Positions 1-45,180 of a DNA stretch of 64,000 nt are shown in pieces. The notes under the pieces were generated by a model, which saw only the letters and a program-made list of their open reading frames with translations, searched no databases and had not been told where the DNA came from. Source of the stretch: Pseudomonadota bacterium (GTDB lineage Bacteria; Pseudomonadota; Gammaproteobacteria; Steroidobacterales; Steroidobacteraceae); assembly GCA_021838635.1 (NCBI GenBank), contig JAKCDC010000001.1, positions 1 through 64,000 on the forward strand, in the 5' to 3' direction. Made by a program: the position numbers and the translations under genes. The first letter of the stretch is position 1. Each line of letters begins with the position of its first letter.

Positions 1-116
1 GGATAACTCAGGCCCGCACTCGAGAACCCGAAGCGCAGCGGCACGGCCGCCTCGGCTCGCACGGCCAGCGCTCCCGAGAGCACGATCGCGAGCTGCAGCG
101 CGCGCGCGACGTTCAC
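1..116 (-). CDS. Partial secreted protein, N-terminus only
   Basis: A reading frame opens with GTG at 116 (another in-frame GTG is at 122) just after the MaoC-like gene and stays open to the left edge of the window. The visible 38 or so residues begin with a hydrophobic stretch (ALQLAIVLSGALA) followed by AEA, which reads as a Sec signal peptide with a cleavage site near residue 24. The rest is too short to identify. A GGCGGG stretch a few bases upstream could be the ribosome-binding site. It is 20 bases downstream of the hydratase gene and on the same strand, so it is probably the third gene of the CoA-transferase unit. The existence of the gene is an inference from frame, signal peptide and position. 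Confidence 0.4.
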   Translation of the reverse strand, partial: MNVARALQLAIVLSGALAVRAEAAVPLRFGFSSAGLSY

Positions 117-135
117 AGGCACGACCCGCCGGTGC

Positions 136-588
136 TCACGCAGCCGTCTCGCGCCGTTCGACCAGATACAGATGCTCGCAGGCGAGCACGGTCTCGTCGC
201 GCTGGTTGGCGATGGTGACTTGCTCCACGACGATGCCATGCCTGGTGCGCTTGGGGTGATCGCGCCGTTCGCTGATGCGGGTCGTGACCGTGATCGTATC
301 CCCTATGAATACCGGGCGGATGAAGCGTACGCGATCGTAGCCGTACGACATGGCGCGCGGATTGATGGCCTGAGCGGTCATGCCGATACCGGCGCTCAGC
401 ACCAGTGTGCCATGTGCGATACGCTGCTTGAACGGCTGGGCCGCGCACCACTCGGCATCCATGTGATGGGGGAAGAAGTCCCCGGTCTGCCCGGCGTGGG
501 CAACGATGTCCGCCTCGGTGATCGTGCGCCCGAACGTGCGCCGCTCGGCACCGACCTGGTAGTCCTCGAAATACTGCTCGACGATCAT
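136..588 (-). CDS. MaoC-family hydratase (acyl-CoA hydratase-like)
   Basis: The 150-residue protein is a single hot-dog-fold MaoC domain. The hydratase-2 motif is visible at about residues 35-42 (TGDFFPHH), with Asp37 and His42 at the positions of the catalytic pair; family members hydrate trans-2-enoyl-CoA thioesters or dehydrate 3-hydroxyacyl-CoA. The length is usual for the stand-alone family. Its ATG overlaps the stop of the CoA-transferase gene by four bases, so the two are translationally coupled and probably act in sequence: CoA activation of an acid, then hydration or dehydration. The substrate cannot be read from the sequence. The pairing resembles the logic of mesaconyl/citramalyl-CoA enzymes, but that is only analogy. 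Confidence 0.85.
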
Positions 589-1793
589 GTGGACTCTCCC
601 GGCGCATCGAGTGCGAAGCGGTGCAGGATCTGTTCAGTGTCCCGCCCGAGCGTGGGTGCACCACGAGGATGAGTGAGCGGCGCGCCGTCGACGCGGATCG
701 GACAGCGCGTTGTGGTGAGCGCACCGTGCTCCTCGTTGTGAATCTCTTGCGTCATGGCGAGTGCGGCAAAGCCCTCGCTCGCGACAAGCTGCGGCCAGGT
801 GAACACCTCGGCGCACCAGATGTCTGCCGGCTCGAGAATCGCAAGCCAATGGGCTGTCGGCTGTAGTGCCAGATGCGCGGCGAGGACGGACTTGATGGCC
901 GAGCGTTCGGCGAACCAGCGCTGCGGGTCCGTGTATTGGCATAGCGCTTCGCAGCCGATGAGCGCCCCGAGCCGATCGATCGCCGTCATGGCGACGGCCA
1001 GATAGCTGTCGGCCGTCCGGTAGATGCCATACGGGGCGCCGATGTAGACGCTTGCGTTGTTGACCGTATCGCGCGGCGGTTGCTGCCCATCGCCGTTCAG
1101 GAAGGCGGTGAACTGCTCGAATTGCATGTCCATGGCGGACTCAAACAGGCTGACGTCCACGCGCCCGCCCCGTCCCGTGCGGGCGCGCCGCACCAAAAGC
1201 GCGAGCACGCCCTGGCAGAGCTGTGCTCCGGCCATCAGGTCGGCGATGGAGACCCCCATCGGCACCGGTCCCTGCGTGGCATCACCGGACAACCAAGCGA
1301 GTCCCGACATCGCCTGCACCAGCAGATCCTGCCCGGGCTTGTTGCGCCAGGGGCCGCGGGTACCGTAGCCGGTGATGGCCGCATAGACCAGCCGCGGGTT
1401 CAGTTCGGCCACCGTGGCGTAATCCAGACCGAGGCGGTCCATCACGCCGGGTCGAAAATTGTGCACCATCACGTCCGCCTGGCGAATAAGCGCCTTGACG
1501 CGCGCCAAGTCGACCGGATCCTTCAAATCAGCCGCAAAGCTCTGCTTGTTGCGGTTAATGGTATGAAAGAGCGCGCTATCGCCGCCAAAAGCCTGGTCGG
1601 CAAGATACAGGCGACGGGACAGATCCCCGCCCTGTGGACGCTCCACCTTGATGACCTCGGCACCGAGATCCGCCAGCCGCAGGCAACAGGAGGGTCCCGC
1701 TAGAAACTGGCTGAAATCCAGTACTAGCACCCCCTCCAGCGGTCGCCCCGCGATCGTGGTCGGCGCGTCGCAGTCTGCGTGCGCTGTCTTCAA
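585..1793 (-). CDS. CoA-transferase family III (CaiB/BaiF type)
   Basis: The 402-residue protein matches family III CoA-transferases throughout: the N-terminal [14 protein letters not shown] segment, [10 protein letters not shown] at about 42-51, and the [12 protein letters not shown] segment. In that segment Asp156 is the expected catalytic aspartate that forms the aspartyl-CoA thioester. Family members move CoA between carboxylic acids in the cytoplasm, often for carnitine, oxalate, aromatic or dicarboxylic acids. It is the first gene of a leftward unit with the MaoC-like gene and diverges from the solute-binding-protein/GH127/RLP operon. The shared promoter suggests a role in breaking down the same substrate. 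The specific acid is unknown. Confidence 0.9.
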
Positions 1794-1894
1794 CCGGGTT
1801 CCTCGCGTATAGTTTGCAGATAAATGCTATGTTCGTTAACAAACGGTGTCAACCGGCACCGTGTGAACGACGGACGGACACTGGGAGATGGGCG
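1794..1894. promoter_or_regulatory. Divergent promoter region with near-perfect palindrome
   Basis: This 101-bp, comparatively AT-rich stretch separates the CoA-transferase unit from the solute-binding-protein/GH127/RLP/kinase unit. Centred in it is GTTCGTTAACAAAC (1831-1844), a 14-bp inverted repeat that is symmetric except for one position pair. Its place between two divergent starts is what one expects for an operator of a dimeric repressor. No regulator gene for it is in the window; it may lie left of position 1. The operator role is an inference. Confidence 0.5.
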
Positions 1895-3031
1895 ATGGGT
1901 GAGACGCACTCGATCCAGCTGCGGGGCATGACTTGGGATCATCCGCGCGGCTATGGACCGTTGCGCGCCTGTTCGGCCACGTGGTTTGAGCGAACCGGGG
2001 TGCGGATCGAGTGGGAGCGCCGCTCGCTGCAGGATTTCGAGGCGTTTCCGGTGGCCGAGCTCGCCGCCCGCTACGATCTGATCGTCATTGATCATCCCCA
2101 CGTCGGGCAGGTGGCACGCACGGGCTGCCTTGCGCCGTTCGAGACCAGGGAGGCCGGGAGCGATGCAGTCGATCAGGCCGTCGGGGCCTCGCTGCAGAGC
2201 TATCGCTATCAAGAGCAGCTGTGGGCGCTGCCGATCGATGCGGCCGCCCAGGTCCAGGCGTGGCGGCCAGACCGTCTCGCGGCGCCACCAGCGGATTGGG
2301 CGGCCGTGCTCGAACTTGCGCTCGACGGCGGCATACTGTGCCCGTTGCGCCCGCCACACAATCTCATGGCGCTGTTCACACTCTGCGGACTGGCTGGACA
2401 CCCGGCGTGCGCGCAGGGTGACGCGCTGTTCGACCCGGCCGCGGGCGCTGAAGCCTATGAGCGCCTGCGCGAACTGGCTGCGCGGCTCGATCCGCGCAGC
2501 GCCGAGTGGGACCCTATCGCGGTGCTGGAACAGATGGCCGTACCGGACGCGACCGCAGTCTGCGCACCGCTGGTATACGGTTATGTCAGTTATGCACGGC
2601 CTGACGCACCTGGCACCCGTCTCGCATTTTCCGACGTGGCACCGCTGCAGCGTGGCGGCTCGCGTGCCGGCTCGGCGCTCGGCGGCACCGGCATCGCAGT
2701 ATCTGCGCACGGTCACAAGCGCGACGCGGCGCTCGCGTTCGCCCGCTGGCTGGCGGGCGCCGAAGCGCAGTGTGGGCCCTATGTGGCCGGCGGCGGCCAA
2801 CCGGCTCACCGCGCCGCATGGGAAGATCCGCGCACCAACGAGGCCACGCTCGGGTTTTACCGCAATACACGCGCCACGCTCGAGGGCGCCTGGGTGCGCC
2901 CCCGCCATGCCGGATACATGATCTTCCAAGAGCGGGCCTCGCTGCGTCTGGGCGCAGCGCTCGGCGCGCGTGAACCGCCAGTTCAGCTCATCGCTGCGCT
3001 CAATAGACTGTATCTCGAGGTATTACCATGA
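1895..3031 (+). CDS. Solute-binding-protein-like protein without signal peptide
   Basis: A 378-residue protein with the look of a family 1 extracellular solute-binding protein: an N-terminal segment (LRGMTWDHPRGYGPL), a DLIVIDHPHVG strand, and a C-terminal half with GTGIAVSAHGHKRDAALAFARWLAG, typical of ABC sugar-binding proteins. No signal peptide or lipobox is visible, and upstream in-frame extension gives only a polar sequence, so the product looks cytoplasmic. I chose ATG 1895 because GGGAG lies seven bases upstream and the conserved part starts there. It overlaps the GH127 start by four bases. No ABC permease or ATPase gene is near. A cytoplasmic binding or sensing role is possible but unproven. 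Confidence 0.65.
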   Translation: MGETHSIQLRGMTWDHPRGYGPLRACSATWFERTGVRIEWERRSLQDFEAFPVAELAARYDLIVIDHPHVGQVARTGCLAPFETREAGSDAVDQAVGASLQSYRYQEQLWALPIDAAAQVQAWRPDRLAAPPADWAAVLELALDGGILCPLRPPHNLMALFTLCGLAGHPACAQGDALFDPAAGAEAYERLRELAARLDPRSAEWDPIAVLEQMAVPDATAVCAPLVYGYVSYARPDAPGTRLAFSDVAPLQRGGSRAGSALGGTGIAVSAHGHKRDAALAFARWLAGAEAQCGPYVAGGGQPAHRAAWEDPRTNEATLGFYRNTRATLEGAWVRPRHAGYMIFQERASLRLGAALGAREPPVQLIAALNRLYLEVLP

Positions 3032-4857
3032 ACCGACCCACCTCACGCCGGACCTTCCTGCAATCGGCCGCGACTGCGGCCGGACTCGGGGTCATTGGAG
3101 CGCGGACCCGCTGGGCGCGCGCGGCCGCAGCCACGCCGGCCCCACAAAGCGCAACGCTGCAGCAGCTGTATGAATTCGACTATGACCAAGTCGCGCTAAC
3201 TGGCGGGGCGCTGAAGGCGCAGTACGACTTCATTCACGCGCACTATCTGGCCCTCGACGACGACCGACTGCTACAGGTGTACCGTGAGCACGCCGGGCTG
3301 CCCGCGCCGGGTATCGACATGGGCGGCTGGTACGGTGCGGACGGATTCATTCCGGGCCATTCGTTTGGTCAGTACGTGTCCGGCCTGGCGCGCATCGGCC
3401 GCTGCACCGGGGATGCGGCGTGCCGCTCGAAAGTGCACGAGCTGGTCCGCGGGTTCGGGACGGCACTGGAGGCGAACCCGGTCCCCTACGCCGGCGAAGG
3501 CGCCTGGAAGATGTGGCCGGCCTACGTGCTCGACAAGCACATGATCGGGCTGATCGACGCCTATCGCTTAAGCGGCATGCGGCAGGCGCGAACGCTCATT
3601 CCGAGGGTTATTCAGGGCGCGCTGCCGTTCATCTCACCGGTCAGCCGCGACCGGATCGGAGTGAAGAACCCTCCCTACGATGAAACCTACATCGTCTCGG
3701 AGAATCTGTTCACCGCAGCGCACCTGACCGGTGAGCGTCGCGTATGGGACTTGGCGGTGAAATACCTGCTCAATCAGCCGTACTTCGATCCGCTCGCGCG
3801 CGGGGAAAACGTGCTCGCCGGCCGCCAGGCGTACAGCCACGTCATGGCGCTGAGTTCCGCGGCCATGGCGTATCTGGAACTCGGCCAACCGCGCTACCGC
3901 GAGGCGATCGTCAACGGTTGGACCTTCCTCGGTGAGCAGAGCTTCGCCACCGGAGGCTGGGGTCCGAACGAGCTGCTGATCGCGCCGGGCAGCGGCGGCC
4001 TGTACTCGAGCCTCACCACCACCGCGAATCATTTCGAGACACCCTGCGGCACCTACGCGACCATGAAGCTCGCTCGGTACCTGCTGCGGTTCACTGGCGA
4101 TGCGCGCTACGGCGATGGGCTGGAACGGATCATGTGGAACGGCCTGCTCGCCGTGCGTCCGCCCGACTCCAATGGCAACTCGCCCTACTACTCCAGCTAC
4201 AACCCGGGGGCGAAGAAAGTGTTCTATCCCCAGAAATGGCCATGCTGTTCCGGCACTTTGGTCCAGGGCGTCGCGGACTACGTGCGCAACATCTACTTCC
4301 ATGCCCCGGGAGCGCTCTACGTCAACCTGTTCACGCCTTCGCACGTGCGCTGGCGCACGGGTGGACGTGCAGTCACAGTCACGCAGGACACCGACTATCC
4401 GACCGGAGAGTCGGTCACCGTGAGGATTGCGACGAGTGCACCGGCGGCATTCGCGCTCATGATCCGCATCCCCGGCTGGCTCAGCAGCGATCCCCAAGTG
4501 CGCATCAACGGGCGCACGACCGCGGTGGTGGCAAGGCCCGGCACCTTTGCCGTGCTGCGGCGCACCTGGCGCGACGGCGATCGGGTCGAGCTGCACTTGC
4601 CGCAGCGTCTGCGCACCGAGCCAATCGACCGCTCGCATCCCGAGACTGTCGCGTTGCTGCGCGGTCCGATCATGTACAGCGCGTTGAACTTCGCCGGTCC
4701 CGACACACCCGTACCGCGGCTACACCTGCCGGGACTCTCGCCGGTCACCGGCATGAACGCGGCCTACCGTCAGTCGCAGGGCGGGCAGGACATTCTGTTC
4801 GTGCCCTTCTATCAGGTTCAGAACGAGTCCTACGATGTCTACTTCCAACGGTCCTGA
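3028..4857 (+). CDS. GH127-like (DUF1680) secreted glycoside hydrolase
   Basis: The 609-residue protein starts with a twin-arginine signal (SRRTFLQ at 6-12, hydrophobic region, cleavage near 35), so it is probably exported folded by Tat. The body is an (alpha/alpha)6-barrel of the DUF1680/GH127 type with a C-terminal beta domain. GH127 enzymes use a zinc-bound cysteine nucleophile held by Glu and three Cys. Here Glu337, Cys340 and the pair Cys406-Cys407 (KWPCCSGT) fill those roles, but the spacing ExxC and the CCSGT context differ from the ExC/CCPPN pattern of bifidobacterial beta-L-arabinofuranosidase. It therefore belongs to a different subgroup. GH127 also contains an aceric acid hydrolase. 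Operon partners (RLP, DUF1537 kinase) suggest that it releases a branched or uncommon pentose, which is an inference. Confidence 0.85.
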   Translation: MNRPTSRRTFLQSAATAAGLGVIGARTRWARAAAATPAPQSATLQQLYEFDYDQVALTGGALKAQYDFIHAHYLALDDDRLLQVYREHAGLPAPGIDMGGWYGADGFIPGHSFGQYVSGLARIGRCTGDAACRSKVHELVRGFGTALEANPVPYAGEGAWKMWPAYVLDKHMIGLIDAYRLSGMRQARTLIPRVIQGALPFISPVSRDRIGVKNPPYDETYIVSENLFTAAHLTGERRVWDLAVKYLLNQPYFDPLARGENVLAGRQAYSHVMALSSAAMAYLELGQPRYREAIVNGWTFLGEQSFATGGWGPNELLIAPGSGGLYSSLTTTANHFETPCGTYATMKLARYLLRFTGDARYGDGLERIMWNGLLAVRPPDSNGNSPYYSSYNPGAKKVFYPQKWPCCSGTLVQGVADYVRNIYFHAPGALYVNLFTPSHVRWRTGGRAVTVTQDTDYPTGESVTVRIATSAPAAFALMIRIPGWLSSDPQVRINGRTTAVVARPGTFAVLRRTWRDGDRVELHLPQRLRTEPIDRSHPETVALLRGPIMYSALNFAGPDTPVPRLHLPGLSPVTGMNAAYRQSQGGQDILFVPFYQVQNESYDVYFQRS

Positions 4858-6121
4858 AGACGCTCGCGTCAGTGCGCGCTACTGGATCGAGACGGCACGG
4901 CCGCTCGAGGCGGCAGCGGCGACCATGGCAGGCGAGCAGTCGACGGGTACCTTCGTGCGCGTCGCGGGCGAGACGGATGCATTGCGCGAGCGCTTCGCCG
5001 CGCGTGTCGACTCACTGATACCGTTGGGCGAAACCAGCGTCCCTTCGCTGCCTGGCGCTTGGCATCCACGCGGCAACAACGGCAGCTGGCGCACCGCGGA
5101 AGTGACCCTGTCGTGGCCACTGCATAACTTTGGCGTCTCGCTGCCGAACCTGCTCGCCACCGTGGCCGGAAATCTCTGGGAGCTCAACGCATTTTCCGGA
5201 ATGCGCCTGCTCGATCTGACTATCCCGGCGGATTTTCTCCGCGCATATCCCGGCCCACAGTTCGGCGTGCCCGGCACGCGCGAGCTGAGCGGTGTGCATG
5301 GGCGGCCGCTCATTGGCACCATCATCAAGCCGAGCGTCGGCCTCTCGCCGGCCGAAACGGCCGCCCGGGTTGCGGATCTGGTGGCGGCCGGCGTCGATTT
5401 CATCAAGGACGACGAGCTGCAGGCGGATGGTCCGCACTGTCCGTTCGAGGCGCGCCTCGGCGCGGTGATGCAGGTGCTGCGTACACACGCCGAGCGCACC
5501 GGACAACGCGTGCTCTATGCCGTAAACATCACCGGGGAGATCGACCAGATGCTGCGCCGCCACGAGCGCGTCGTGGCCGAAGGCGGTAACTGCGTGATGG
5601 TCAGCCTGCACAGTGTGGGTTTCGCCGGCCTGACCGCCCTGCGCGCCCAGTGCCAGGTGCCGATCCACGGGCACCGCAACGGCTGGGGACTGCTCGGCCG
5701 CTCGCCGGCCATTGGCGTGAGCTTCCCGGCATGGCAGAAGCTGTGGCGACTGGCCGGCATCGACCACGTTCATGTCAATGGACTCGACAACAAGTTCTGC
5801 GAAAGCAACGATTCAGTCATCGCCTCGGCGCGCGAATGCCTCACCCCGATGTTTTCCCCGCCTTCCCCCGGCTGCCAGATCATGCCGGTGTTCTCCTCGG
5901 GCCAGACCGCATGCCAGGTACCGGGCACCTGGCACGCCCTCGGCTCGGTGGATCTCATTCATGCCTGCGGCGGCGGCATCATCGGTCATCCGGGCGGCGC
6001 GCCCGCAGGGGTGCGCAGCCTGCGCCAAGCGTGGGAAGCAGCGGTGGCTGGCCTTTCGCTCAGCGATTATGCACGCGAGCACCGGGAGCTTGCCGAAGCC
6101 CTCGAGCATTTCGGCCGCTGA
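4835..6121 (+). CDS. RuBisCO-like protein, probable 3-oxo-isoapionate-4-phosphate decarboxylase or transcarboxylase type
   Basis: The 428-residue protein aligns by motif with the RuBisCO large-subunit superfamily. GTIIKPSVGL holds Lys165 (RuBisCO Lys175), and DFIKDDE holds Lys191, Asp193 and Glu194 (the carbamylated lysine and metal ligands). Asn113 matches Asn123 and HRNGWG holds His280-Arg281. The second lysine of the TIKPK motif is Ser, and the loop-6 lysine segment of true RuBisCO is not seen, so carboxylation of RuBP is unlikely. RLPs next to DUF1537 kinases act on 3-oxo-isoapionate 4-phosphate (OiaX decarboxylase, OiaT transcarboxylase/hydrolase). Which activity this one has cannot be decided by eye. 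Its start overlaps the GH127 gene by 23 bases, and the kinase follows after 10 bases. Confidence 0.85.
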   Translation: MSTSNGPEDARVSARYWIETARPLEAAAATMAGEQSTGTFVRVAGETDALRERFAARVDSLIPLGETSVPSLPGAWHPRGNNGSWRTAEVTLSWPLHNFGVSLPNLLATVAGNLWELNAFSGMRLLDLTIPADFLRAYPGPQFGVPGTRELSGVHGRPLIGTIIKPSVGLSPAETAARVADLVAAGVDFIKDDELQADGPHCPFEARLGAVMQVLRTHAERTGQRVLYAVNITGEIDQMLRRHERVVAEGGNCVMVSLHSVGFAGLTALRAQCQVPIHGHRNGWGLLGRSPAIGVSFPAWQKLWRLAGIDHVHVNGLDNKFCESNDSVIASARECLTPMFSPPSPGCQIMPVFSSGQTACQVPGTWHALGSVDLIHACGGGIIGHPGGAPAGVRSLRQAWEAAVAGLSLSDYAREHRELAEALEHFGR

Positions 6122-6131
6122 ACGGCGCCGC

Positions 6132-7442
6132 ATGACCCGTCCTCTGTACGCCTATTACGGCGATGATTTTACCGGCTCCACCGACGTGCTCGAGGTACTG
6201 GCATCGGCCGGGGTGGACAGCGTGCTATTTGTCGATGCGCCGAGCGAGGCGCTTGAGCGCAAGTTCGCGACGTGTCGGGCGTTCGGGATTGCCGGCGACA
6301 GTCGCAGTCGCTCGCCGCAGTGGATGAGCACGTATCTGCCTGCGCTCCTGACACGGCTCGGCGCGCTCGGTGCCCCGATCACGCAATACAAGACCTGCTC
6401 GACCTTCGACAGCGCCCCTGAGGTCGGCTCTATCGGCCGCGCCCTCGAAATCGGCCACGCAACGCTACCCGGGCCATTCATTCCGATTGTTGTCGGGGCA
6501 CCGCACTTGGGTCGCTACGTAGTGTTTGGAAACCTGTTCGCCGCTGCCGCGGGGAGCGTCTACCGCATCGACCGGCACCCGACCATGCGCTCTCACCCGG
6601 TGACGCCGATGCACGAGGCTGACCTCTGTCGTCACCTCGCCTCGCAGACCGCGATGCGGGTCGGTCGAGTAGAGCTGCCCGCTTTAGCCGAGGACGCGGC
6701 AGCCGAGGCATTGAACCGCTGCGTGTTGGCCGGCGACCAGGCGGTGCTCTTCGACGGCGTGAGCGAAATGGACCTGCTGCGCATCGGCACGTTGATCTGG
6801 GACCGCGCCGGTATGCACCGTCTGTTCTGCGCCGGCAGCTCAGGGCTGCCCTATGCGCTCATTGGCGCATGGCGCCGCGCCGGGCTGATTGCGGCTGAGC
6901 CGCTGCCGCGGCGCACGGCTCGTACCGTCGATAGGTTGCTCGTCGTGAGCGGCAGCTGCTCGCCCATCACCGAGCGCCAGATTCAAACCGCCCTGCGCAC
7001 AGGGTATCGGGGCGTGGCGGTCGATGCCGAGGCGCTAGTGAGCGATGGGCGCGGGGCCGCGAGCGCCGACCGGTTGGTGGAGGAAGTGCTCCGAAACCTC
7101 CGAGACGGCCACAGCACCGTCGTGTACAGCGCACTCGGAGCGCTCAAGCCGGGAACTGCGGCCGCCGGTGCAGCCCTAGGCCAGTGTCTCGGGCGCCTCA
7201 CGGCGCGCATCCTTGCCGCGGCACCGTTACCGCGCGTGCTGCTGGCCGGCGGTGACACCTCGAGTCATGCGGTGGCGCAGATGGGGCTGCAGGCGCTCAC
7301 CTGGCACAACTCTCTCGAGCCGGGCGCCCCGTTGTGCCTGGCACACGCCGACGGTGCGGCCCTGGACGGGTTGGAGCTCGTTCTAAAGGGCGGCCAGGTC
7401 GGCAGCGACGGATTCTTCGATCGCGTTCGGCTCGGTCGGTAG
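6132..7442 (+). CDS. Four-carbon acid sugar kinase family (DUF1537), OiaK-like
   Basis: A 436-residue DUF1537 kinase. The N-terminal acid-sugar-binding domain carries YYGDDFTGSTD (8-18), and the C-terminal nucleotide-binding domain carries LLAGGDTSSHA and LVLKGGQVGSDGFF, the glycine-rich segments of the family. The family phosphorylates four-carbon aldonic acids and 3-oxo-isoapionate. I start at ATG 6132, which gives the normal family length; upstream extension would run inside the RLP gene. The RLP/kinase pair fits phosphorylation followed by decarboxylation or transcarboxylation of a branched 3-oxo acid. The dehydrogenase, lactonase and oxidoisomerase that would make 3-oxo-isoapionate from D-apiose are not in the window. 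Confidence 0.85.
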   Translation: MTRPLYAYYGDDFTGSTDVLEVLASAGVDSVLFVDAPSEALERKFATCRAFGIAGDSRSRSPQWMSTYLPALLTRLGALGAPITQYKTCSTFDSAPEVGSIGRALEIGHATLPGPFIPIVVGAPHLGRYVVFGNLFAAAAGSVYRIDRHPTMRSHPVTPMHEADLCRHLASQTAMRVGRVELPALAEDAAAEALNRCVLAGDQAVLFDGVSEMDLLRIGTLIWDRAGMHRLFCAGSSGLPYALIGAWRRAGLIAAEPLPRRTARTVDRLLVVSGSCSPITERQIQTALRTGYRGVAVDAEALVSDGRGAASADRLVEEVLRNLRDGHSTVVYSALGALKPGTAAAGAALGQCLGRLTARILAAAPLPRVLLAGGDTSSHAVAQMGLQALTWHNSLEPGAPLCLAHADGAALDGLELVLKGGQVGSDGFFDRVRLGR

Positions 7443-9540: not shown

Positions 9541-10824
9541 CTATACGCCATCGCCTAAGGACGGAGCAGTTGCGGATTCGCAGTTCGGGGACGGTAAGCC
9601 CGCGGTGCAATCTACTATGGAAAACACCAGCGCCGCGATTAAAACCATCAGCGCTACGGCGCGCACGGGGAGCTCGTAGTTACCGGTGGTCCCGACGATA
9701 TAGCCAAACGCAAGCGTGCACATCACGCCTCCGACCTGCCCGGCAGTGTTCATCACTCCCGTTGCCGCGCCACCGTGACTGCCACCGATGCTCATGCACA
9801 TCGTCCAGGCGGCCGGCAGCATCAGGTCCATGGTGGCAAATCCGGCGCTCGCCAGCACGACGACGGCGATGCGGCCGGTGGCCATGCTCATCGCGAAGAG
9901 TAATGCCGCACCGACCGTCAGACAGCCGGCGGTCATCACCCGAGTGGCGTTGCGCAGACCGATGTGCAGGCCGAGCCGATCACAGATCACACCGCCGACG
10001 AGATTGCTGCCGATGCCGAGCAGGAAGGGGAATGCCGCGTAGACACCCATCTGCCGCAGCGAAAAATGACCGGCGTGCACCATCCAGGTCGGAAACCAGT
10101 TGAAATAGAACCAGCTACCGCAACCGTAGCAACCATACGCGAGCACGATGAGCCATAGCTGGCGTAGTCGCAGCAACCGCCGCAGCGCGCCCTCGCCGCC
10201 GTGCGCCGGGAGTCCGCGGGTGCCGATCTCGGCCAGTTCCTCTGGCCGGATGCCGGGCTGGTCGGTCGGTTGGTCGTGAAACCACGCCCACCACGCGACC
10301 GCCCAGGCGGCGCCGATGACGGCGAGCACCCAGAAGACCGAACGCCACCCGAAGTGGATCGCAAGCGGCACTAGCAGCAACGGGGCGAGCGCCCCACCGA
10401 GGCGGCTCGCAGCCCACACGGCCCCCTGACCGCGCGCCCGTTCGCGCGCAGGCAGCCAGCGCCACAGCACGCCGGAGGCATTCGGATACGCGCCCGCAGA
10501 GCCGAGGCCGAAGCAGAAGCGCACGATCGCCAGCGGCACAAACCGCGTGCACGTGCCGGTGAGCGCTGTAAAGCCCGACCACCAGGCAGCAATCCGTGAT
10601 AATTCGCGCCGTTGACCGTGGCGGTCCCCGAGGGCGCCGGAGGGAATCTCGAACAGACCGTAGGCGATCACGTAGGCGCTGAGCACCCAGCCCCACTGTT
10701 CGGGGGAGAGGCCGAGGTCGTGTTGGATGCGCGGTCCGAGCACCGAGATCGCCATCCGGTCGAGAAAGGTGATGACCGAGACGACGCTCAACAGCGCGAC
10801 GACAGCATAGCGCTTACGCAGCAT
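9541..10824 (-). CDS. MFS transporter, anion:cation symporter-like
   Basis: A 427-residue inner-membrane protein with about 12 hydrophobic segments. The loop 2-3 motif of the major facilitator superfamily is present (GALGDRHGQRR, residues 63-73), and the N-terminus (VSVITFLDRMAISVLGPRI) resembles the ACS subfamily that imports hexuronates, galactonate and other sugar acids with protons. It is the last gene of the long rhamnose operon, and its ATG immediately follows the TGA of the racemase-family gene. It may import an aldonic or uronic acid released with rhamnose from pectin. The substrate is an inference from family and context. Confidence 0.85.
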   Translation of the reverse strand: MLRKRYAVVALLSVVSVITFLDRMAISVLGPRIQHDLGLSPEQWGWVLSAYVIAYGLFEIPSGALGDRHGQRRELSRIAAWWSGFTALTGTCTRFVPLAIVRFCFGLGSAGAYPNASGVLWRWLPARERARGQGAVWAASRLGGALAPLLLVPLAIHFGWRSVFWVLAVIGAAWAVAWWAWFHDQPTDQPGIRPEELAEIGTRGLPAHGGEGALRRLLRLRQLWLIVLAYGCYGCGSWFYFNWFPTWMVHAGHFSLRQMGVYAAFPFLLGIGSNLVGGVICDRLGLHIGLRNATRVMTAGCLTVGAALLFAMSMATGRIAVVVLASAGFATMDLMLPAAWTMCMSIGGSHGGAATGVMNTAGQVGGVMCTLAFGYIVGTTGNYELPVRAVALMVLIAALVFSIVDCTAGLPSPNCESATAPSLGDGV

Positions 10825-11499
10825 TCAGCTAGTCCCGAGACCGAACACGTCGCGGACCTGTCGGATCCCGGACTCGGGACTGGAGAGCACCGGCACCGTG
10901 AGGGCTCCGGGCGGCAACGCCGCAACGACGCGGGCCATGGACGCCTGCGCGAGCACGATGACGTCAACCTCCCGCATCCTCTCCATCAGCGCGGCACTCA
11001 CGAGCCGATCGTGGGTCGCTGTATCACCAGCCAATACAGCGTCGAACGCTCCTTCGCAAAGGCACTCCAGGACCTCGATGCTGCGTTCAGCCTCGTCCGC
11101 TGCACGGCGTACGAGTGCCGAAGTCGGCTCCAGCGTCGTGCGCAGCGTGGCGAGCACACCGATGCGCCGACCCTGCCGAACTGCCGCCCGCGCCATCGGC
11201 GCATCGACTCGCAGCACCGGTGCGTCGTAGAGCTGCTGGGCCAGATCCACGGCCGGCCCGACAGACGAGCAGGTCACCAACACAGCGTCGGCACCGCTTT
11301 CGAGGGCTGATCCGGCCAGACTTGCCAGTCGCCGCACGGTGGTTTTCTGCAGCCGGCCGGCCTCGATCGTATTCTTGATCAGGCTTTCATCGACCGTGTG
11401 GAATATGCGCACCTCGGGCAGCCATTGGGCGCACAGCGCTGTGAACAGCGGCGTCAGTACCGGGGAGGTGTGCAGCAGGGCGAGTTTGCGTGGTCTCAT
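10825..11499 (-). CDS. Aspartate/glutamate racemase superfamily protein with one catalytic cysteine
   Basis: The 224-residue protein belongs to the Asp/Glu/hydantoin racemase superfamily. The first active-site segment is VTCSSVGP with Cys77. The second segment, where racemases carry another Cys, reads DVIVLAQASMA and has none. Superfamily members with a single cysteine include decarboxylases and isomerases (arylmalonate decarboxylase, maleate isomerase), so amino-acid racemisation is unlikely. It sits between a GH78 gene (one base gap) and an MFS transporter gene in the rhamnose operon, which suggests a small sugar-acid substrate. No specific function can be assigned. Confidence 0.75.
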   Translation of the reverse strand: MRPRKLALLHTSPVLTPLFTALCAQWLPEVRIFHTVDESLIKNTIEAGRLQKTTVRRLASLAGSALESGADAVLVTCSSVGPAVDLAQQLYDAPVLRVDAPMARAAVRQGRRIGVLATLRTTLEPTSALVRRAADEAERSIEVLECLCEGAFDAVLAGDTATHDRLVSAALMERMREVDVIVLAQASMARVVAALPPGALTVPVLSSPESGIRQVRDVFGLGTS

Positions 11500-11500
11500 A

Positions 11501-14500
11501 TCAGTCTCTGGTCAGTTCATAGATACCCGAGCCGAACTCCGTATCGAACGCGCCGTCGCGCGGCTGCGCGGTTCGAAGCGCAGCCGCGCGCAACGACTGT
11601 CCGTCGGCGCGCCACTCATGCGGATGGCCCGGCAGATGGACTTGCGCACTGCTGTTGGCCGGCACGCGCAGCCTCAACCGGGTGAGGCCTTGCGCGCCCC
11701 CCTCGATCTCGGTGTCGATCCGGCCGAGACATGACTCATAATGTGCGCGCACGCGCGGGATGCGCGGATCGAACAGCGGATTGACTTGAATGCGACGAAA
11801 GCCGGGCGCCGCCGCGTCGATTCCCCCGAGCCGCCGGTACATAAAGCCGACCACCGCCCCGAGCGCGTAGTGGTTGAACGAATTCATGGACTGATCGACG
11901 ACATTGCCGTTCCAGCGCTCCCACATGGTGGTAGCGCCGTGTTCGATCATGTAGCCCCAGGAGGGATAGCGGGTTTGCAGCAGCAGTGTGATCGCCAGGT
12001 GCGCCTGGCCGTTATCGGCCAGCGCATCAAGCAGGCAGGGCGTGCCCAGAAATCCGGTGGAGAGCAGGTTGCCGCGGCTCGCGACGTTCGCGGCCAGATG
12101 GGTCCCGGCGCGCAGGCGCAGCGCCGGCGGCACCAGGCCAAAGCGCAGTGCGAGCGCGTAGCTGGTTTGACTGCCATTGCCGACCGTGCCATCGGCTTGA
12201 ACGAACGCCTGCTGGAAGGCCGTGCGGATTCGCCGGTGCATTCGCTCGTAGCGGCGTGCCGGCTCGGCATGGCCGAGCGCGGTGGCCATTTCGGCCATCA
12301 TAGCCGCGCAGCGCGCCCAGTACGCGGTGGCGACCAGGGTCTTCGGCGTGGTCGCCTCTGCAGGGTTCGGTGCCACGTCTGGATTGGTCGAAACCACCGA
12401 CAACCAATCGCCGAGGTCCAAGCCGCGGCGGCGATGCCAAATGAAATCCGGATTGGCCTGCGCCACATAATCGACCCAGCGCTGCATGTGAGACCAGTTC
12501 TGTGCGATCACACTGGTCTCGCCGTAACGACGGTAGAGGGTCCAGGGGAGGATGACCCCTGCATCGCTCCACCCCGCAGTGACGAGTTCGGGAAATGACC
12601 GGGGTTGGGGGGTGACGATCGGAAAGGCGCCGTCCGGCGTCTGTCCGGCGCGAATTTCGCCCAGGAAGCGGCGAATGAACGAATCAACATCCATGTTGAA
12701 TGCGGCTGCATCGAGAAAGACCTGGATGTCGCCCATCCACCCCATGCGCTCGTCGCGCTGCGGGCAGTCCGTCGGCACGCCGAAGAAGTTAGAGCGTTGA
12801 CTCCAGAGTGCGTTGTGCCAGATCTGCTGCGCGATCGGCTGCTCGATCTCAAGCGCGCCGGTTTCGGCGGCATCGGTATGCGCCACGACGCCATCTAGCG
12901 ATTCTCGGGTCGGTACGCCAGGGAAACCGGTGATCTCGACGTAACGGAAGCCGTGATACGTGAAATGCGGCTCGTACATTTCCCCGTGCGGATCGCCGCG
13001 CAGCGTGTAGTGATCGGTGGCTTTGGCCGCGCGCAGGTTGGCGGTATTGATCATGCCGTCCGGATGAAGGATTTCCGCATGCCGCAACCGCACCCGCGTA
13101 CCGGCCGGTCCGGTGACGTGCAGTCGGCACCAGCCGGCGAAATTCTGTCCAAAATCGCACACGTACACGCCAGGGCGCGGTTCACTCACGGTGCGCACCG
13201 CGAGCATTTGGAGCGCGCGAATCGGCGGGTCCACCTGCGCCACGAGCCGCTCGCGCGGTCGCTCGCCTACGGCAGCGGCGCGCCAGCCGGAGGCATCGTA
13301 CCCCGGAGCGTCCCAGCCGGGGCGCTCCCGGCGCGCGTCGTAGTCCTCGCCGTTGTAGATCTCTGCGGTGCGGATCATTGACTCGGCGAGCTGCCAGCGC
13401 GAGTCCGTGACCAGAACATTACGCTCCCCGCTGGCGTAATCGATGACCAATTGCGCAAGGAAACGTCGCGGGCTGCCGGCCAACGCGTAACGTTCATTGT
13501 TCCAAGTGAATGCGGATGCGTACCACCCGTCGCCGATCAATGCGCCGATGGCGTTGGTGCCGGAATGCAGCAGGTCCGTCGCCTCGTAGCACTGATACAG
13601 TACATGATCGCTGGCAACGGTGATCTCCGGGGAAAGCCGCGCCGTTCCCAGGCGTTGCCCGTTGATGTGCGGTTCGTACGCACCGAGCGCCGTGGCGTAC
13701 AGCCTGGCACGCGTAATCGGCTCGGAAATGAGGAATTCCCTGCGCGCGAACATGGCCGGGCGCGGCGGCCGTGGATCACAGGGCGGGGCAGTGGCGGCAG
13801 GCTGCGCCTGCCGCCAGGACCGGTCGTCGAAGTCCGCTCGCATCCAATCCGGCGGAGCCGTCTGCGAGACGCGCCACGACGGGCCGCTGCCTAGGCGCTC
13901 GAGCGTCCCATCGCCATGCCAGATTTTGATGAGCGCAGCGAGTGCGCCGCCCGTGCCCGGCATGAAGGTGCCCGGATCAGCGCGGCCACTCACGGCGATG
14001 ATGTGCCGGCCTGGTGTCACCGGCAGCGGCAGGTCTTGCATTGACCCCCAGGGCCGCTCGGCGGGCAAGGCGAGCGGATGACCATCGATCCATACGCCGA
14101 GCAGATCATCCTTGGCGGATAGCCACAGCCGTGCCCGGCGCACGCCTGGTGGCAGATTGAAGCCATAGCGGAACTGCTGGGGCTGCGGTGCCAGCGGTGG
14201 CGCGTCACTCCAGATCCAGTGCAGACCGACCGCCCGGTCCGCACGCTCTTCGGGGCTTTCGATGTCCAACCATTCGGCCTGCCAGTCGGAGGAGTGCAGC
14301 AGCCCCATCTCGAACCAGGCCGGCTCGCTCGGCGGACCCGCTCTACCGTGGCCGTCCCACACCTGCACGCGCCACCAGACGCGTTGCGCCGAAAGCAGCG
14401 TACGGCCCCTGTACCTGACATCGAAACATCGGTCAGTGGAAACCACGCCGCTGTCCCAGAGATCAGGCTGCGCGGCCACCAGTCGCTCGCGGCTGGTGGC

Positions 14501-14755
14501 CGCGGTGATCCGGTAGGCGCTCTGCATGGCGCGGCGCGCACGACTCTCGAGCGCCCAGGAGAGACTGGGCTCGGTCACTTCGAGCCCGAGCGGCAGTTCG
14601 ATGCGCTCGGCGCGCAGAGCGACGGCTCTCAGCGGCCCGAGAGACTGCGCTGCACAAGGCTCCTCGCCGTGCGCCTCGGCCGCATTCAACAACACCGGCG
14701 CCACCGCGAGCAACCCCGTGCCGAGCAGTGCGCGGCGGCGATTGATCCTAGCCAC
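11501..14755 (-). CDS. Alpha-L-rhamnosidase, GH78 (first of three)
   Basis: A 1084-residue secreted enzyme. The N-terminus has an Arg-rich twin-arginine-like signal (NRRRALLG, hydrophobic core, AEA near 27). It is followed by fibronectin-like and beta-sandwich domains, then the (alpha/alpha)6 catalytic barrel. The GH78 catalytic block CPQRDERMGWMGD is at about 660-672, with its acidic residues as candidate general acid, and GATTMWERWNG near 942 supplies the expected general base Glu. GH78 enzymes remove terminal alpha-L-rhamnose by inversion. It follows the SGNH esterase gene by 11 bases and precedes the racemase-family gene in the rhamnose operon, so the released rhamnose would feed the catabolic genes of the same transcript. 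Confidence 0.92.
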   Translation of the reverse strand: MARINRRRALLGTGLLAVAPVLLNAAEAHGEEPCAAQSLGPLRAVALRAERIELPLGLEVTEPSLSWALESRARRAMQSAYRITAATSRERLVAAQPDLWDSGVVSTDRCFDVRYRGRTLLSAQRVWWRVQVWDGHGRAGPPSEPAWFEMGLLHSSDWQAEWLDIESPEERADRAVGLHWIWSDAPPLAPQPQQFRYGFNLPPGVRRARLWLSAKDDLLGVWIDGHPLALPAERPWGSMQDLPLPVTPGRHIIAVSGRADPGTFMPGTGGALAALIKIWHGDGTLERLGSGPSWRVSQTAPPDWMRADFDDRSWRQAQPAATAPPCDPRPPRPAMFARREFLISEPITRARLYATALGAYEPHINGQRLGTARLSPEITVASDHVLYQCYEATDLLHSGTNAIGALIGDGWYASAFTWNNERYALAGSPRRFLAQLVIDYASGERNVLVTDSRWQLAESMIRTAEIYNGEDYDARRERPGWDAPGYDASGWRAAAVGERPRERLVAQVDPPIRALQMLAVRTVSEPRPGVYVCDFGQNFAGWCRLHVTGPAGTRVRLRHAEILHPDGMINTANLRAAKATDHYTLRGDPHGEMYEPHFTYHGFRYVEITGFPGVPTRESLDGVVAHTDAAETGALEIEQPIAQQIWHNALWSQRSNFFGVPTDCPQRDERMGWMGDIQVFLDAAAFNMDVDSFIRRFLGEIRAGQTPDGAFPIVTPQPRSFPELVTAGWSDAGVILPWTLYRRYGETSVIAQNWSHMQRWVDYVAQANPDFIWHRRRGLDLGDWLSVVSTNPDVAPNPAEATTPKTLVATAYWARCAAMMAEMATALGHAEPARRYERMHRRIRTAFQQAFVQADGTVGNGSQTSYALALRFGLVPPALRLRAGTHLAANVASRGNLLSTGFLGTPCLLDALADNGQAHLAITLLLQTRYPSWGYMIEHGATTMWERWNGNVVDQSMNSFNHYALGAVVGFMYRRLGGIDAAAPGFRRIQVNPLFDPRIPRVRAHYESCLGRIDTEIEGGAQGLTRLRLRVPANSSAQVHLPGHPHEWRADGQSLRAAALRTAQPRDGAFDTEFGSGIYELTRD

Positions 14756-14766
14756 GGCCCGCGCGC

Positions 14767-16026
14767 TCAGCGCTTCGCGTGCGCCAAGGCCGCCCTTGCG
14801 AGCGGTTTGCCGGGCGCGAACAAGTCTCGGTAGACCGTCTCCGCCATAAGGTGATAGCCGGCATCATTGGGATGCAGATCGTCACCACACTGATCAGCTC
14901 CACGATAGTGATGCGGATGACGCGGATCGCGCAGCGCACCGTCAAAATGAACGACACCGTCGAAGCCGTGACCCTTGCGGATCCAGGCATTAACCTGCTC
15001 GCGTACTTGTTCGCCGCGCGGGTGCTCGTAGGTCGCACCCATATACGGCGTCAGCGTACCGAGATAGATCTTGATCCCGTGTGCGTGGGCCCGATGGATC
15101 AGGTCGCGGTAGGCCCCAATGATGGCCGAGGCCGGCAACGGCCCGGTGTCGCCACGCGGATCGTAGGCCCAACCGATGTCATTGATGCCCTCGAGCAGCA
15201 CGATGGCACGTACGCCCGGTATATCGAGCGCATCGCGCTTGAACCGAGCCAGCGCCTTCGGTCCCGCGCCATTGTGCAGCAGGCGGTTGCCACTGATGCC
15301 GGAGTTGATTACCACCCAGTGACGATCCCTGGCGTGTTTTGCGAGCAGCCGCTCAAGCTGCGCCGGATAGTCGCGATGCGTTCCCGGCGTGGAGCAGAAG
15401 CCCTCCGTGATCGAATCCCCGAACGCGACCAGTACCGGGCGCGGGTGCGGACTGGAAATCTCAACGCCGCTGGCGAGTTCCGGCGCCTGCGGCCGTCCGC
15501 CCTGGGACCAGACCGCTTCGGTCACGTGATTGCCCGACGGGGAGACCCAGAGATTCGCAAGATGGCCGGCAGGGGCGGCCCCCGAGGGGTAATACACTGA
15601 AATCGCGATGTTCTCGAAGCGGTGCACACGCATCGCGACCGGATCGCTCAGCCACGCCTTGCCGACCGGAATGCGCCCGCCCTGCCGGCCGCCGAAGGTC
15701 AGCACGTGGACGGTCCCCTTGCGCAGCACGCCGTTTGGCGAAGACACTGCAAGAGTCACCTCACCGAAGCGCACCGGGGAGAGACCGAGTTCATTGGTCA
15801 GGCGCACACGCACCCGATCGCCGCCGGCCTGAAGCTGCACGACCTGACGCACAGACTGGTGGGAAAAGGTGCGCTGCTGGTTGCAGCCCCATACCGCCGT
15901 CGTGGGGTAGGGTGGGGAATACCACGCGGCTGTCCAATGACCGGCGGCCCATGCGGGCGACCCGAACAACAGCGCGCAGGCGGCTGTGGCGTGCGCCGCG
16001 GCGCGAATCCTGCGCCCGGCGCTCAT
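14767..16026 (-). CDS. Secreted SGNH/GDSL hydrolase, probable glycan deacetylase
   Basis: The 419-residue protein has a Sec signal peptide (about 1-27, ending PAWA). An N-terminal beta domain of about 170 residues precedes an SGNH hydrolase domain. All four blocks are present: FGDSITEG (Ser nucleophile), SGISGNR (Gly), LEGINDIG (Asn) and DDLHPNDAGY (Asp/His). The family includes carbohydrate acetyl-esterases such as rhamnogalacturonan acetylesterase, which act before or with rhamnosidases. Its ATG overlaps the rhaT stop by four bases and the GH78 gene follows, so de-esterification of a rhamnose-containing glycan is the likely role. The exact ester is not known. Confidence 0.85.
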   Translation of the reverse strand: MSAGRRIRAAAHATAACALLFGSPAWAAGHWTAAWYSPPYPTTAVWGCNQQRTFSHQSVRQVVQLQAGGDRVRVRLTNELGLSPVRFGEVTLAVSSPNGVLRKGTVHVLTFGGRQGGRIPVGKAWLSDPVAMRVHRFENIAISVYYPSGAAPAGHLANLWVSPSGNHVTEAVWSQGGRPQAPELASGVEISSPHPRPVLVAFGDSITEGFCSTPGTHRDYPAQLERLLAKHARDRHWVVINSGISGNRLLHNGAGPKALARFKRDALDIPGVRAIVLLEGINDIGWAYDPRGDTGPLPASAIIGAYRDLIHRAHAHGIKIYLGTLTPYMGATYEHPRGEQVREQVNAWIRKGHGFDGVVHFDGALRDPRHPHHYRGADQCGDDLHPNDAGYHLMAETVYRDLFAPGKPLARAALAHAKR

Positions 16027-17105
16027 CCGCGCACCACGAGGTAATTACCCAGACCGATCACGACCGTCGCGCCGATGAGGGTCAGCAGACCTGCGCTCAT
16101 CAGTGTGAAGCTGCGCCGGCTCGCGCCCTTCCATTCCTTCAGCGCCAATCCCCACACCGTGGCGAAGATAATGATGCTGGACATGTGCAGCGTCCAACTG
16201 GAAAAGGCGTATCGGCCCATCTGACTTTCCCCCATGGTGTAAAAGAAGAATTGCAGGTACCAGGCCGTGCCGCCCAGAGCGCACAATAGAAAATTGCGGC
16301 GCAACGAGATGTTCGCGCCGCCGGCGTCCATGCCAGCGGCAAAGGTACGACCGCTGGCGTTCTTGATGATCAGGTAGACGCACCAGATCGCGTTGGTGGT
16401 GAACCCGCCGAGCAGCACCACGACCAGCACGGGCAGTCCCTGCCAGAGTGTTCCGGTGCCATGCGCAAGCGTCAGATGTCGAATCGGCCCACCGGCATCG
16501 AGACCATAGGCGAAGCAGCTGCTCATGATGCCGGAGAACACCGCCACCGCGATGCCTCTGCGAAAATCGGTCGCTTTCGGCAGGGCATGATCCTGATCGG
16601 TCAGGTGTTGTCGGGCCTGCTCCTGTTCCTTGCGGTGCCCCGCTTTACCGACGACGGCGATCCCGGCGAGCGCCACGACGACGCCAAGCAGCACGACGCG
16701 CCCGCCAGCGCTGTGAATAAGGCTTCCGAACAGCTGTCCGCTCACCAGCGGCGGGATCAGCGTGCCGAACGCGGCCGTCAGGCCGAGCGCGACCGCGGTA
16801 CCGAGGGAGATACCGAGGTAGCGCATCGTCAAGCCGAAGGTCAACCCCCCGAAGCCCCACAACACACCGAAGAAGTAACACAGCGCCAGTGTGCGCATCG
16901 GCGTGGCGGCGAGCACTGCGAGTAACTGATGGGTCTGCAGTCCGGCGAACAGCCAGGGCGCTATGATCCAGCTGAACACCCCTCCGATCAGCCAAAACAC
17001 CTCCCACGACCAGCCGCGCACCGCACGGTATGGCACGTAAAAACTGGCCGAGGCGAGCCCGCCGAGCCAGTGAAACAGGACGCCGAGCAGCGGATTGGGT
17101 GTCAT
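16023..17105 (-). CDS. rhaT: L-rhamnose:H+ symporter RhaT
   Basis: The protein is an inner-membrane permease with about ten hydrophobic segments. It matches RhaT in its opening (GVLFHWLGGLASASFYVPYRAVRGWSWE), in the GFGGLTFGLTMRYLGISLG segment and in its C-terminal layout. I start at ATG 17105 (360 residues), because the family begins close to the first membrane helix; an upstream TTG would add a 14-residue Pro-rich tail. RhaT imports L-rhamnose with a proton. The gene lies between the lactonase and esterase genes in the rhamnose operon. The TonB-dependent receptor at 35-38 kb is the likely outer-membrane partner for oligomers. Confidence 0.92.
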   Translation of the reverse strand: MTPNPLLGVLFHWLGGLASASFYVPYRAVRGWSWEVFWLIGGVFSWIIAPWLFAGLQTHQLLAVLAATPMRTLALCYFFGVLWGFGGLTFGLTMRYLGISLGTAVALGLTAAFGTLIPPLVSGQLFGSLIHSAGGRVVLLGVVVALAGIAVVGKAGHRKEQEQARQHLTDQDHALPKATDFRRGIAVAVFSGIMSSCFAYGLDAGGPIRHLTLAHGTGTLWQGLPVLVVVLLGGFTTNAIWCVYLIIKNASGRTFAAGMDAGGANISLRRNFLLCALGGTAWYLQFFFYTMGESQMGRYAFSSWTLHMSSIIIFATVWGLALKEWKGASRRSFTLMSAGLLTLIGATVVIGLGNYLVVRG

Positions 17106-17162
17106 GCGAAGAATGCCTGGTGGTGCCGGAGGAGGGTGATGACGCAATGGAACATCGGTAGT

Positions 17163-18065: not shown

Positions 18066-18144
18066 ATCGGGCTGCGCGCCTGCGCGACCCACCGGCCGCG
18101 CAGGCGCGCAGGAGGATGCGATGCTGTTCGGGCTAGGACCGACA

Positions 18145-18894: not shown

Positions 18895-18906
18895 GGGCCT
18901 TACTCC

Positions 18907-19761: not shown

Positions 19762-19823
19762 GGCGTGTCGATGGGTCTCTTTTGGATAGACTGTCGGTTC
19801 TTCAATAGCAAGGTCGGCGCCGC

Positions 19824-21002: not shown

Positions 21003-21097
21003 GGATGGCGTCGACTCACTGGTCTTAACGGGCGACGGCGGCGCGCAGTGGTTGCGGCCACAGCCGTTGTCCCACATACTAATACGGGTACCACATA
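21003..21097. promoter_or_regulatory. Divergent promoter of rhamnose operon and iclR-family gene
   Basis: The 95-bp stretch between the two starts holds two direct CCACAT repeats (21072-21077 and 21091-21096) whose starts are 19 bp apart, about two helical turns. A TACTAAT stretch between them could be a -10 element for the rightward gene, which has no visible Shine-Dalgarno and may be leaderless. The repeats are candidate binding sites for the IclR-type protein. All of this is inference from position and spacing. Confidence 0.4.
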
Positions 21098-42449: not shown

Positions 42450-42492
42450 GGGTCCAAGAGTACCCCCGCGGCCCGGCTGATAGAAGAGTCCG

Positions 42493-44781: not shown

Positions 44782-44886
44782 GCGGACCACCTCGTTGTAC
44801 GCCAGGATGCAGGCCGGGGCCGGGTCGTTCCGGCCCCGCAGACGCATCGGCGTCGGCCGGGCAGCAGTCGTCAGCGCCGTCCCGCG

Positions 44887-45021: not shown

Positions 45022-45077
45022 ACCGGGGCTCCAGAAGGTTCCAGTGGGGTCCAAAAAGGGGCGGCAAGGCTAAGCCG

Positions 45078-45106: not shown

Positions 45107-45180
45107 TGTGAAAATCTTCAGCGGGACGGCCGATCGGTATAGACTCGCCAGCCTTTTCCACCAAGCCGGAGCCCTCCCCG

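Follow-up and report, generated by a model that had tools for sequence, protein, structure and literature searches.

The catabolism of D-apiose and D-apionate runs via OiaK and OiaX or OiaT, a DUF1537 kinase and RuBisCO-like proteins (RLPs). OiaT splits 3-oxo-isoapionate 4-phosphate into 3-phosphoglycerate and glycolate, and the substrates of the kinase/RLP pair belong to the class HOOC-C(OH)(R)-CO-CH2OH. Many enzymes that cut rhamnogalacturonan II (RG-II) are known. The abstract of PMC12168206 describes RG-II as occurring in all plants. Its rare sugar aceric acid is given as 3-C-carboxy-5-deoxy-L-xylose, which can be O-acetylated, in an excerpt of PMC8218411, and BT1003 appears as the aceric acid hydrolase in the GH127 comparison within the relevant part of PMC10850190. 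In the open-access literature no paper was found on the bacterial fate of the freed aceric acid; the subscription literature was mostly not covered. Here, we describe a locus in the window, the first 64 kb of the 294-kb Steroidobacteraceae contig JAKCDC010000001.1, which begins at the contig end. The locus encodes an RLP and a DUF1537 kinase in one operon with a GH127-like glycosidase. We propose that this operon, together with its convergent neighbour, forms a module that breaks down a 3-C-carboxy branched aldose, most likely L-aceric acid or a closely related sugar. We regard the module as real and distinct with high confidence, and give about even weight to L-aceric acid or a close 3-C-carboxy sugar being the substrate.

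The initial annotation had described six genes, with one overlapping operon divergent from a CoA unit. All six were present between positions 136 and 7442, with intact frames and a Pfam match for each. The frames overlap by 4 bp for MaoC/CaiB and for the solute-binding protein (SBP) and GH127, and by 23 bp for GH127/RLP; a gap of 10 bp separates the RLP and the kinase. The genes of this unit had been drawn correctly, whereas its end had not, as the locus continues past 7442 to a major facilitator superfamily (MFS) transporter, an Asp/Glu-racemase-family protein (AGR) and a GH78 enzyme. The AGR and the MFS transporter had been missed as partners of the RLP and the kinase. Of 296 order genomes, 10 had a close RLP (71% identity or more): 9 of the 22 sampled genomes of the same genus and one genome of another family (G078). 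The neighbourhood was conserved, as the initial annotation had asked to be checked: the order of the six genes is the same in all nine RLP-bearing genomes of the genus (the window and 8/8 loci). In the same scan, the ten RLP genomes had a GH127-like protein of at least 998 bits and an AGR of at least 350 bits. For GH127, 19 of the 296 genomes passed 1e-60 and the next best score was 569; for AGR, 13 passed 1e-30 and the other three scored 298, 133 and 131.

The wider set came from one GTDB contig scan, of which the best 80 of 552 relatives were kept and their loci clustered. The presence of genes was scored by tblastn with bit thresholds that we set ourselves, the homology-guided gene calls having mis-framed some kinases. 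Hits were dropped below 40% query coverage for the 80 loci, 45% for plasmids and 35% for Chloroflexota loci, and below 200 aligned residues for the GH127 count. The family called ApnO here (c2) was named from its context and from general knowledge, and the ApnL family (c10) matches NF049900 at 640-711 of 750 bits. A maximum-likelihood tree of the 80 rows, from one search, gave a 22-row RLP clade with support of 100/98 that comprises Gammaproteobacteria, metagenome-assembled genomes (MAGs) of other Proteobacteria, Acidobacteriota (Granulicella, Bryocella, Terriglobus) and sphingomonads. Within this clade, the AGR was found in 19 rows, the MFS transporter in 20 and the GH127-like gene in 17; the three rows without AGR are short or cut contigs. 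ApnO, ApnL and ApsD were detected in none of the 22 flanks; outside the clade, 42 of 58 rows had ApnO. Over the 80 loci, 21 had AGR only, 39 ApnO only, 3 both and 17 neither. GH127 occurred in 16 of 24 AGR loci, in 3 of 56 others (two cut contigs and one weak match) and in none of the 42 ApnO loci; the loci are related and not independent, and association statistics on these counts overstate their independence. Judged from sequence, the core is the GH127-like enzyme, RLP, kinase, AGR and an acid-sugar-type MFS transporter, and it recurs in Acidobacteriota and sphingomonads. RLP relatives were also found in 299 of 72,556 plasmid records. A pectin-gene-rich Croceibacterium plasmid carries all six genes (MaoC 72%, CaiB 61%, SBP 54%, GH127-like 54%, RLP 69% and kinase 56% identical) as well as AGR (64%), MFS (63%) and GH78 (51%).

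The RLP and the kinase had been related to OiaX/OiaT and OiaK, and OiaX and OiaK were the nearest models. The RLP scored 451.9 bits with NF042437 and the kinase 456.7 bits with NF042436, both below the cut-off of 700. RLPs from ApnO loci (L094, L107, L076) scored 473-480 bits with the OiaX model, the Chloroflexi RLP 500 and the Rufibacter RLP 509. The NCBIfam OiaX cut-off is narrow and does not discriminate; as a sign that the RLP is new it was rejected, since RLPs from ApnO loci fail it too. Residues N113, K165, K191, D193, E194 and H280 were invariant in 10/10 RLPs and align with their RuBisCO counterparts, among them the carbamate Lys, the Asp/Glu metal ligands and the catalytic Lys. The position of the loop-6 Lys falls in an alignment gap. 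A filter that compared the clade with ApnO-linked proteins passed 7 RLP and 6 kinase positions, of which kinase L20 alone was also kept by the four AGR-linked proteins from elsewhere in the tree. L20 was present in all clade rows, in these 4/4 and in 4/32 ApnO-linked kinases; the remaining positions were rejected as specificity markers because none of them is kept by all four. For the kinase, the second-best model was 3-oxo-tetronate kinase (185.5 bits), which together with the DUF1537 membership would suit the catabolism of a tetronate, a four-carbon acid sugar, in which a kinase of the OtnK/DtnK kind phosphorylates and the RLP decarboxylates. We regard this as very improbable given the much higher OiaK score, and no tetronate dehydrogenase, OtnC or OtnI was recognised among the genes common to the RLP-clade loci, where not all gene clusters were scanned.

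The module shares the RLP and DUF1537 kinase pair with the apionate system (ApnO-locus RLPs are about 47-66% identical to the window clade among the loci kept), and with it a predicted phosphorylated 2-carboxy-3-keto substrate class. It differs in that the window genus lacks ApnL and ApnO and has GH127 and AGR added, and in that module loci have MFS or SBF transporters in place of the ABC or TRAP transporters frequent in ApnO loci. ApnO and ApnL were each absent from all 9 genus genomes and were both found in the two positive controls (G314, G315). The PF13204 apiosidase (GH140) was likewise absent from the 9 genomes. The apiose and apionate enzymes and GH140 had already been noted as missing from the window, and with their absence from the genus apiose, one of the substrates first suggested, becomes unlikely there. 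Because ApnO and ApnL are missing from 9/9 genus genomes, the module is not simply the apionate pathway, and the RLP and kinase of this genus must have another substrate source than the ApnO/ApnL route.

Aceric acid, one of the candidates that the initial annotation had named, would provide such a substrate. After one aldose-ketose isomerisation it would fall into the kinase/RLP class with R = CH(OH)CH3, as a homologue of 3-oxo-isoapionate. This match was derived before the co-location of hydrolases in Chloroflexota came to light. In Chloroflexi 54-19 (L101) and an Anaerolineae MAG (L090), the RLP-kinase-AGR cluster contains a GH127 that scored 996 and 1019 bits, respectively, with the aceric acid hydrolase model NF049879 (cut-off 950). 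The L101 cluster also holds a GH2 beta-galactosidase and a GDSL esterase, and in L125 a GH2 N-terminal domain comes after the RLP-kinase-AGR run, where the contig ends. Among 251 Chloroflexota genomes, an aceric acid hydrolase over the cut-off was found in 2 and an OiaX-like RLP in 1 (E 2e-173), the four other RLP matches being weaker (1e-61 to 1e-66). This sole OiaX-like RLP lies 43 bp from an over-cut-off aceric acid hydrolase. The genome of Chloroflexi 54-19 (G313) has no ApnO or ApnL.

A third case was plasmid 1 of Rufibacter tibetensis (NZ_CP012644.1, 235 kb, typed mobilizable), which has an RLP-kinase-AGR-SBF symporter-pectinesterase run and an aceric acid hydrolase of 1189.5 bits. No other plasmid record matches the L090 hydrolase over its full length at above 50%. 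The plasmid further carries GH140, GH28, GH78, GH88, sialidase-family, rhamnose and fucose genes, together with MaoC, two CaiB and an SBP; it thus has five of the six window genes, with the aceric acid hydrolase replacing the GH127-like enzyme. In the parts read, tblastn found no ApnO or ApnL on the Rufibacter plasmid (four ApnO and four ApnL queries) or on the Croceibacterium plasmid. As a whole (L155-L159), plasmid 1 looks like an RG-II/pectin utilisation plasmid. The aceric acid proposal is based on the chemical match and on the curated hydrolases that are co-located with RLP, kinase and AGR in these three genomes.

In the scheme that we propose, all substrates and reactions are deduced from the observed gene content, synteny, conserved residues, absences and co-location, while the OiaX/OiaT chemistry and the likeness to 3-oxo-isoapionate are taken from general background. 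The exported GH127-like Cys/Zn glycosidase would free the sugar acid from an oligosaccharide that is also trimmed by GH78, GH42 and GH29, and the MFS transporter would import the anion. An aldose-ketose isomerisation, tentatively by AGR, would then give HOCH2-CO-C(OH)(COOH)-CHOH-CH3, of which the CH2OH group would be phosphorylated by the DUF1537 kinase. The RLP would act on the resulting 2-hydroxy-2-carboxy-3-keto phosphate, either by an OiaX-like decarboxylation to a 5-deoxy-pentulose 1-phosphate or by an OiaT-like transcarboxylation and hydrolysis to 3-phosphoglycerate and lactate. The fullest version, in which the RLP transfers the carboxylate and cleaves the C5 chain of aceric acid to 3-phosphoglycerate and lactate after an unprecedented Cys-dependent AGR isomerase and the kinase, and in which the pair serves aceric acid and apiose, both rare sugars of RG-II, in a first route for aceric acid, is tentative and on balance rather unlikely to hold in every part.

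The candidate isomerase was modelled with a pLDDT of 95 and has a racemase fold (VIA Z 21.7 to the aspartate racemase 1jfl, 208 aligned residues, rmsd 2.5). Aspartate/glutamate racemases rank top among the fold matches, which also include allantoin racemase and arylmalonate decarboxylase, and the Cys of the AGR TCSS motif aligns with a Cys of a hydantoin racemase. The fold and an aligned Cys are therefore common to AGR and the Asp/Glu racemase family (PF01177). AGR differs from that family in its genomic context, which is sugar and not amino acid, and in having a single invariant Cys: C77 was the sole one in 13/13 sequences. The LAQ[AG]SMAR stretch, where the second racemase Cys would presumably sit, contains no Cys. 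Because only one invariant Cys is found, two-base racemisation by AGR is unlikely.

A number of observations weigh against aceric acid as the substrate. The first concerns the hydrolase. That the GH127-like enzyme frees a branched sugar, as first suggested, is independently supported by the curated aceric acid hydrolases co-located with RLP, kinase and AGR in three genomes, whereas the window enzyme itself gave only a partial match of 92.3 of the 950 bits to NF049879. By sequence and structure it was nearest to GH146 beta-L-arabinofuranosidases, and it belongs to a different subfamily from the aceric acid hydrolases. It shares with BT1003 the Cys3-Glu zinc site of clan GH-P: E315, E337, C340, C406 and C407, which include the acid/base Glu, were invariant in 12/12 GH127-like proteins, and the E-x-C and CC motifs align to 5opj. 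The window enzyme has a one-residue insertion within E-x-C, and its structure model has a pLDDT of 75 with a poor active-site region. It could thus be an ordinary beta-L-arabinofuranosidase that trims side chains, with the RLP and kinase acting on an unrelated acid of the same polymer and the operon being a regulatory grouping only. Within the order, three genomes that lack a close RLP have GH127-like relatives of 545-569 bits, which would also agree with this. We consider it improbable, since the GH127-like and RLP genes overlap, the pair is kept across Gammaproteobacteria, sphingomonads and Acidobacteriota, and another GH127 subfamily is paired with the same set in Chloroflexota.

A second group of observations concerns apiose. 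In 27 whole genomes of module carriers, ApnO was found in 7 and ApnL in 6; an absence of ApnO from the whole clade, true of the flanks, was therefore rejected for whole genomes. G078 and five sphingomonads have ApnO and ApnL on the RLP contig, with ApnO 14-24 kb away, and in L069, L080 and L082 AGR and ApnO occur together. The RLP of G078 probably serves apiose too because no second RLP was found there in the order genome scan, and the pair may do so in all six carriers. The positions in the RLP do not separate AGR-linked from ApnO-linked proteins. Alternatively, the RLP and kinase could act on 3-oxo-isoapionate as in the known pathway; where ApnO is missing, AGR or another enzyme would make this compound, or apionate derivatives would be scavenged. 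The nearness of the pair to OiaX and OiaK fits this, as do strong PF13204 matches in several carriers and the ABC transporter and ApsD-like genes beside ApnO and ApnL in three of the six (G303, G304, G305). In two Hephaestia genomes (G303, G305), glycolate-oxidase-like genes adjoin ApnO (in L146, GlcF at 470 bits over its cut-off of 333 and GlcD at 721 under its cut-off of 897), which would be explained by OiaT yielding glycolate; in G078 a GlcD-like gene lies on the opposite side of the RLP. We nevertheless judge the apionate variant to be unlikely. ApnO, ApnL and GH140 are missing from the nine genus genomes, and ApnO and ApnL also from the whole genomes of the isolates Sphingomonas kyeonggiensis (G299) and S. 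populi (G301). Moreover, GH127 is absent from the ApnO loci and the curated aceric acid hydrolases are co-located with the set elsewhere.

Further points against aceric acid came from the other genomes and from AGR. In Chloroflexota, genome G476 encodes an aceric acid hydrolase above the cut-off (L147:9973-11925) without an OiaX-like RLP, and no kinase or AGR was found within the 20 kb read around it. On the Rufibacter plasmid, the hydrolase is about 86 kb from the RLP and has an L-fucose isomerase in its gene run. In the window genus, sialidase-like PF13088 and GH140 were found in 0/9 genomes and GH28, weakly, in 1/9. The genus can probably not digest whole RG-II alone, so it would use side-chain fragments after their release, or a different polymer. 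By our own derivation, the lactate from L-aceric acid should be L, and those lactate dehydrogenases that were seen, near the S. populi locus and on the Croceibacterium plasmid, are D-type enzymes. AGR relatives are racemases, and we know of no sugar isomerase in that family. AGR-like proteins of 46-51% identity are present in a total of 150 plasmid records, with many rhizobial plasmids among them, and in NZ_CP013541.1 the AGR-like protein and the RLP are far apart. Two observations on these hydrolase loci stand by themselves. ABC-transporter-like genes follow the hydrolase in G476, a possible alternative route for aceric acid. The Rufibacter run (L152:15440-21935) contains the L-fucose isomerase, a DHDPS-family protein and a sodium:solute symporter; the isomerase could act on aceric acid or on fucose only.

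The CoA enzymes had been taken as part of the pathway, and this was not upheld. A Shinella plasmid has the CoA module with an ABC transporter, MR/MLE, rhamnose mutarotase, Gfo/Idh and MaoC genes and no RLP or kinase within the 19 kb shown, and CaiB and SBP were present in just 4 of the 22 RLP-clade rows. The view that the six genes are one linear pathway was rejected, as the CoA/SBP genes are separable from RLP and kinase. We read CaiB, MaoC and SBP as a putative module in its own right, carried along in the same clusters of pectin-sugar genes. MaoC is 83-96% identical in 8/8 genus loci, and the Rufibacter plasmid copy 59%. In the SBP, no signal peptide could be seen by eye. Its homologues on plasmids adjoin CaiB, and the SBP matches 145 plasmid records, including Sinorhizobium meliloti plasmids. 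Across the 9 aligned sequences the divergent intergenic block shows strong conservation, whereas the palindrome of the single promoter first proposed does not, its GTTAAC centre occurring in the window and its nearest relative only. A recurring combination of a signal-less SBP-fold protein, one or two CaiB and MaoC was observed at L163:7844-18620, L159:14018-21534 and window positions 136-3031. In pectin plasmids and rhizobia, genes for sugar-binding proteins or ABC transporters, for Gfo/Idh and for IclR accompany it. The combination resembles a CoA-dependent sugar pathway, and to our knowledge no pathway in the literature matches it. In Acidobacteriota, an IclR helix-turn-helix domain fused to a periplasmic-binding-protein domain (cluster c31; L053:6847-8088) was noticed near the RLP operon (L053, L054, L056, L061, L089).

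The features of the locus are listed in Table 1.

Table 1. Positions, strands and family evidence of the features in the window
Feature	Position	Strand	Evidence or remark
MaoC-like hydratase (CoA module)	136-588	-	PF01575 81.9 bits
CaiB/BaiF family III CoA-transferase (CoA module)	585-1793	-	PF02515 345 bits; under every NCBIfam equivalog cut-off listed
Divergent regulatory region with conserved block	1794-1894	.	sigma-70-like promoter, - strand, 1852-1824
SBP_bac_8-fold protein (CoA module)	1895-3031	+	PF13416 50.8 bits
GH127/GH146-clan glycosidase, Tat-type N-terminus (by eye)	3028-4857	+	PF07944+PF20736
RuBisCO-like protein (RLP), OiaX/OiaT-like	4835-6121	+	PF00016+PF02788
DUF1537 acid-sugar kinase, OiaK-like	6132-7442	+	PF07005+PF17042
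MFS transporter, nearest D-galactonate (acid sugar) type	9541-10824	-	TIGR00893 212 bits, cut-off 395
Asp/Glu-racemase-family protein (AGR), candidate isomerase	10825-11499	-	PF01177
GH78 alpha-L-rhamnosidase, in one gene run with AGR and MFS	11501-14755	-	
GDSL/SGNH esterase, candidate sugar deacetylase	14767-16026	-	
L-rhamnose uptake and diketo-hydrolase set: RhaT, amidohydrolase, SDR, FAH-type hydrolase, L-rhamnonate dehydratase	16023-21077	-	neighbouring, not core

A GT9 gene follows the kinase, and then comes the convergent run from the MFS transporter to the L-rhamnose diketo-hydrolase genes, which a divergent IclR regulator accompanies. In the rhamnose set, RhaT scored 503 bits (cut-off 468), L-rhamnonate dehydratase 741 (393) and the FAH-type hydrolase 487, just under its cut-off of 500; Lra1 was over the cut-off. 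This L-rhamnose diketo-hydrolase (LRA) pathway is encoded next door, yet is a separate pathway for rhamnose freed by the same glycosidases. Two GH42, a GH29, an L-rhamnose dehydrogenase, a second GH78 and a TonB receptor lie farther along the window. The genes to the left of MaoC, an ABC transporter and IclR, are visible in relatives only. The sugar cluster adjoins the replication origin region, with mnmE, yidC, dnaA and dnaN at 41097-47967. A 679-aa open reading frame at 22079-24118 matches AcrB/RND pumps in their second half only (PF00873 from position 384) and is a fragment or frameshifted. In sphingomonad clusters, a family of about 680-800 aa is conserved beside the GH29-like gene (L144:10630-12870, with homologues in L142, L143, L145 and L146); the member scanned had no Pfam match at 1e-5.

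Taken together, the conserved gene set probably serves to degrade a rare branched sugar acid of plants with the help of a RuBisCO relative, and the route may be the first proposed for aceric acid. A concrete enzyme set with a full chemical rationale makes the fate of this sugar testable in cultured strains. If the proposal is true, RuBisCO-like chemistry would gain a further substrate, and the Asp/Glu racemase family possibly a new reaction.

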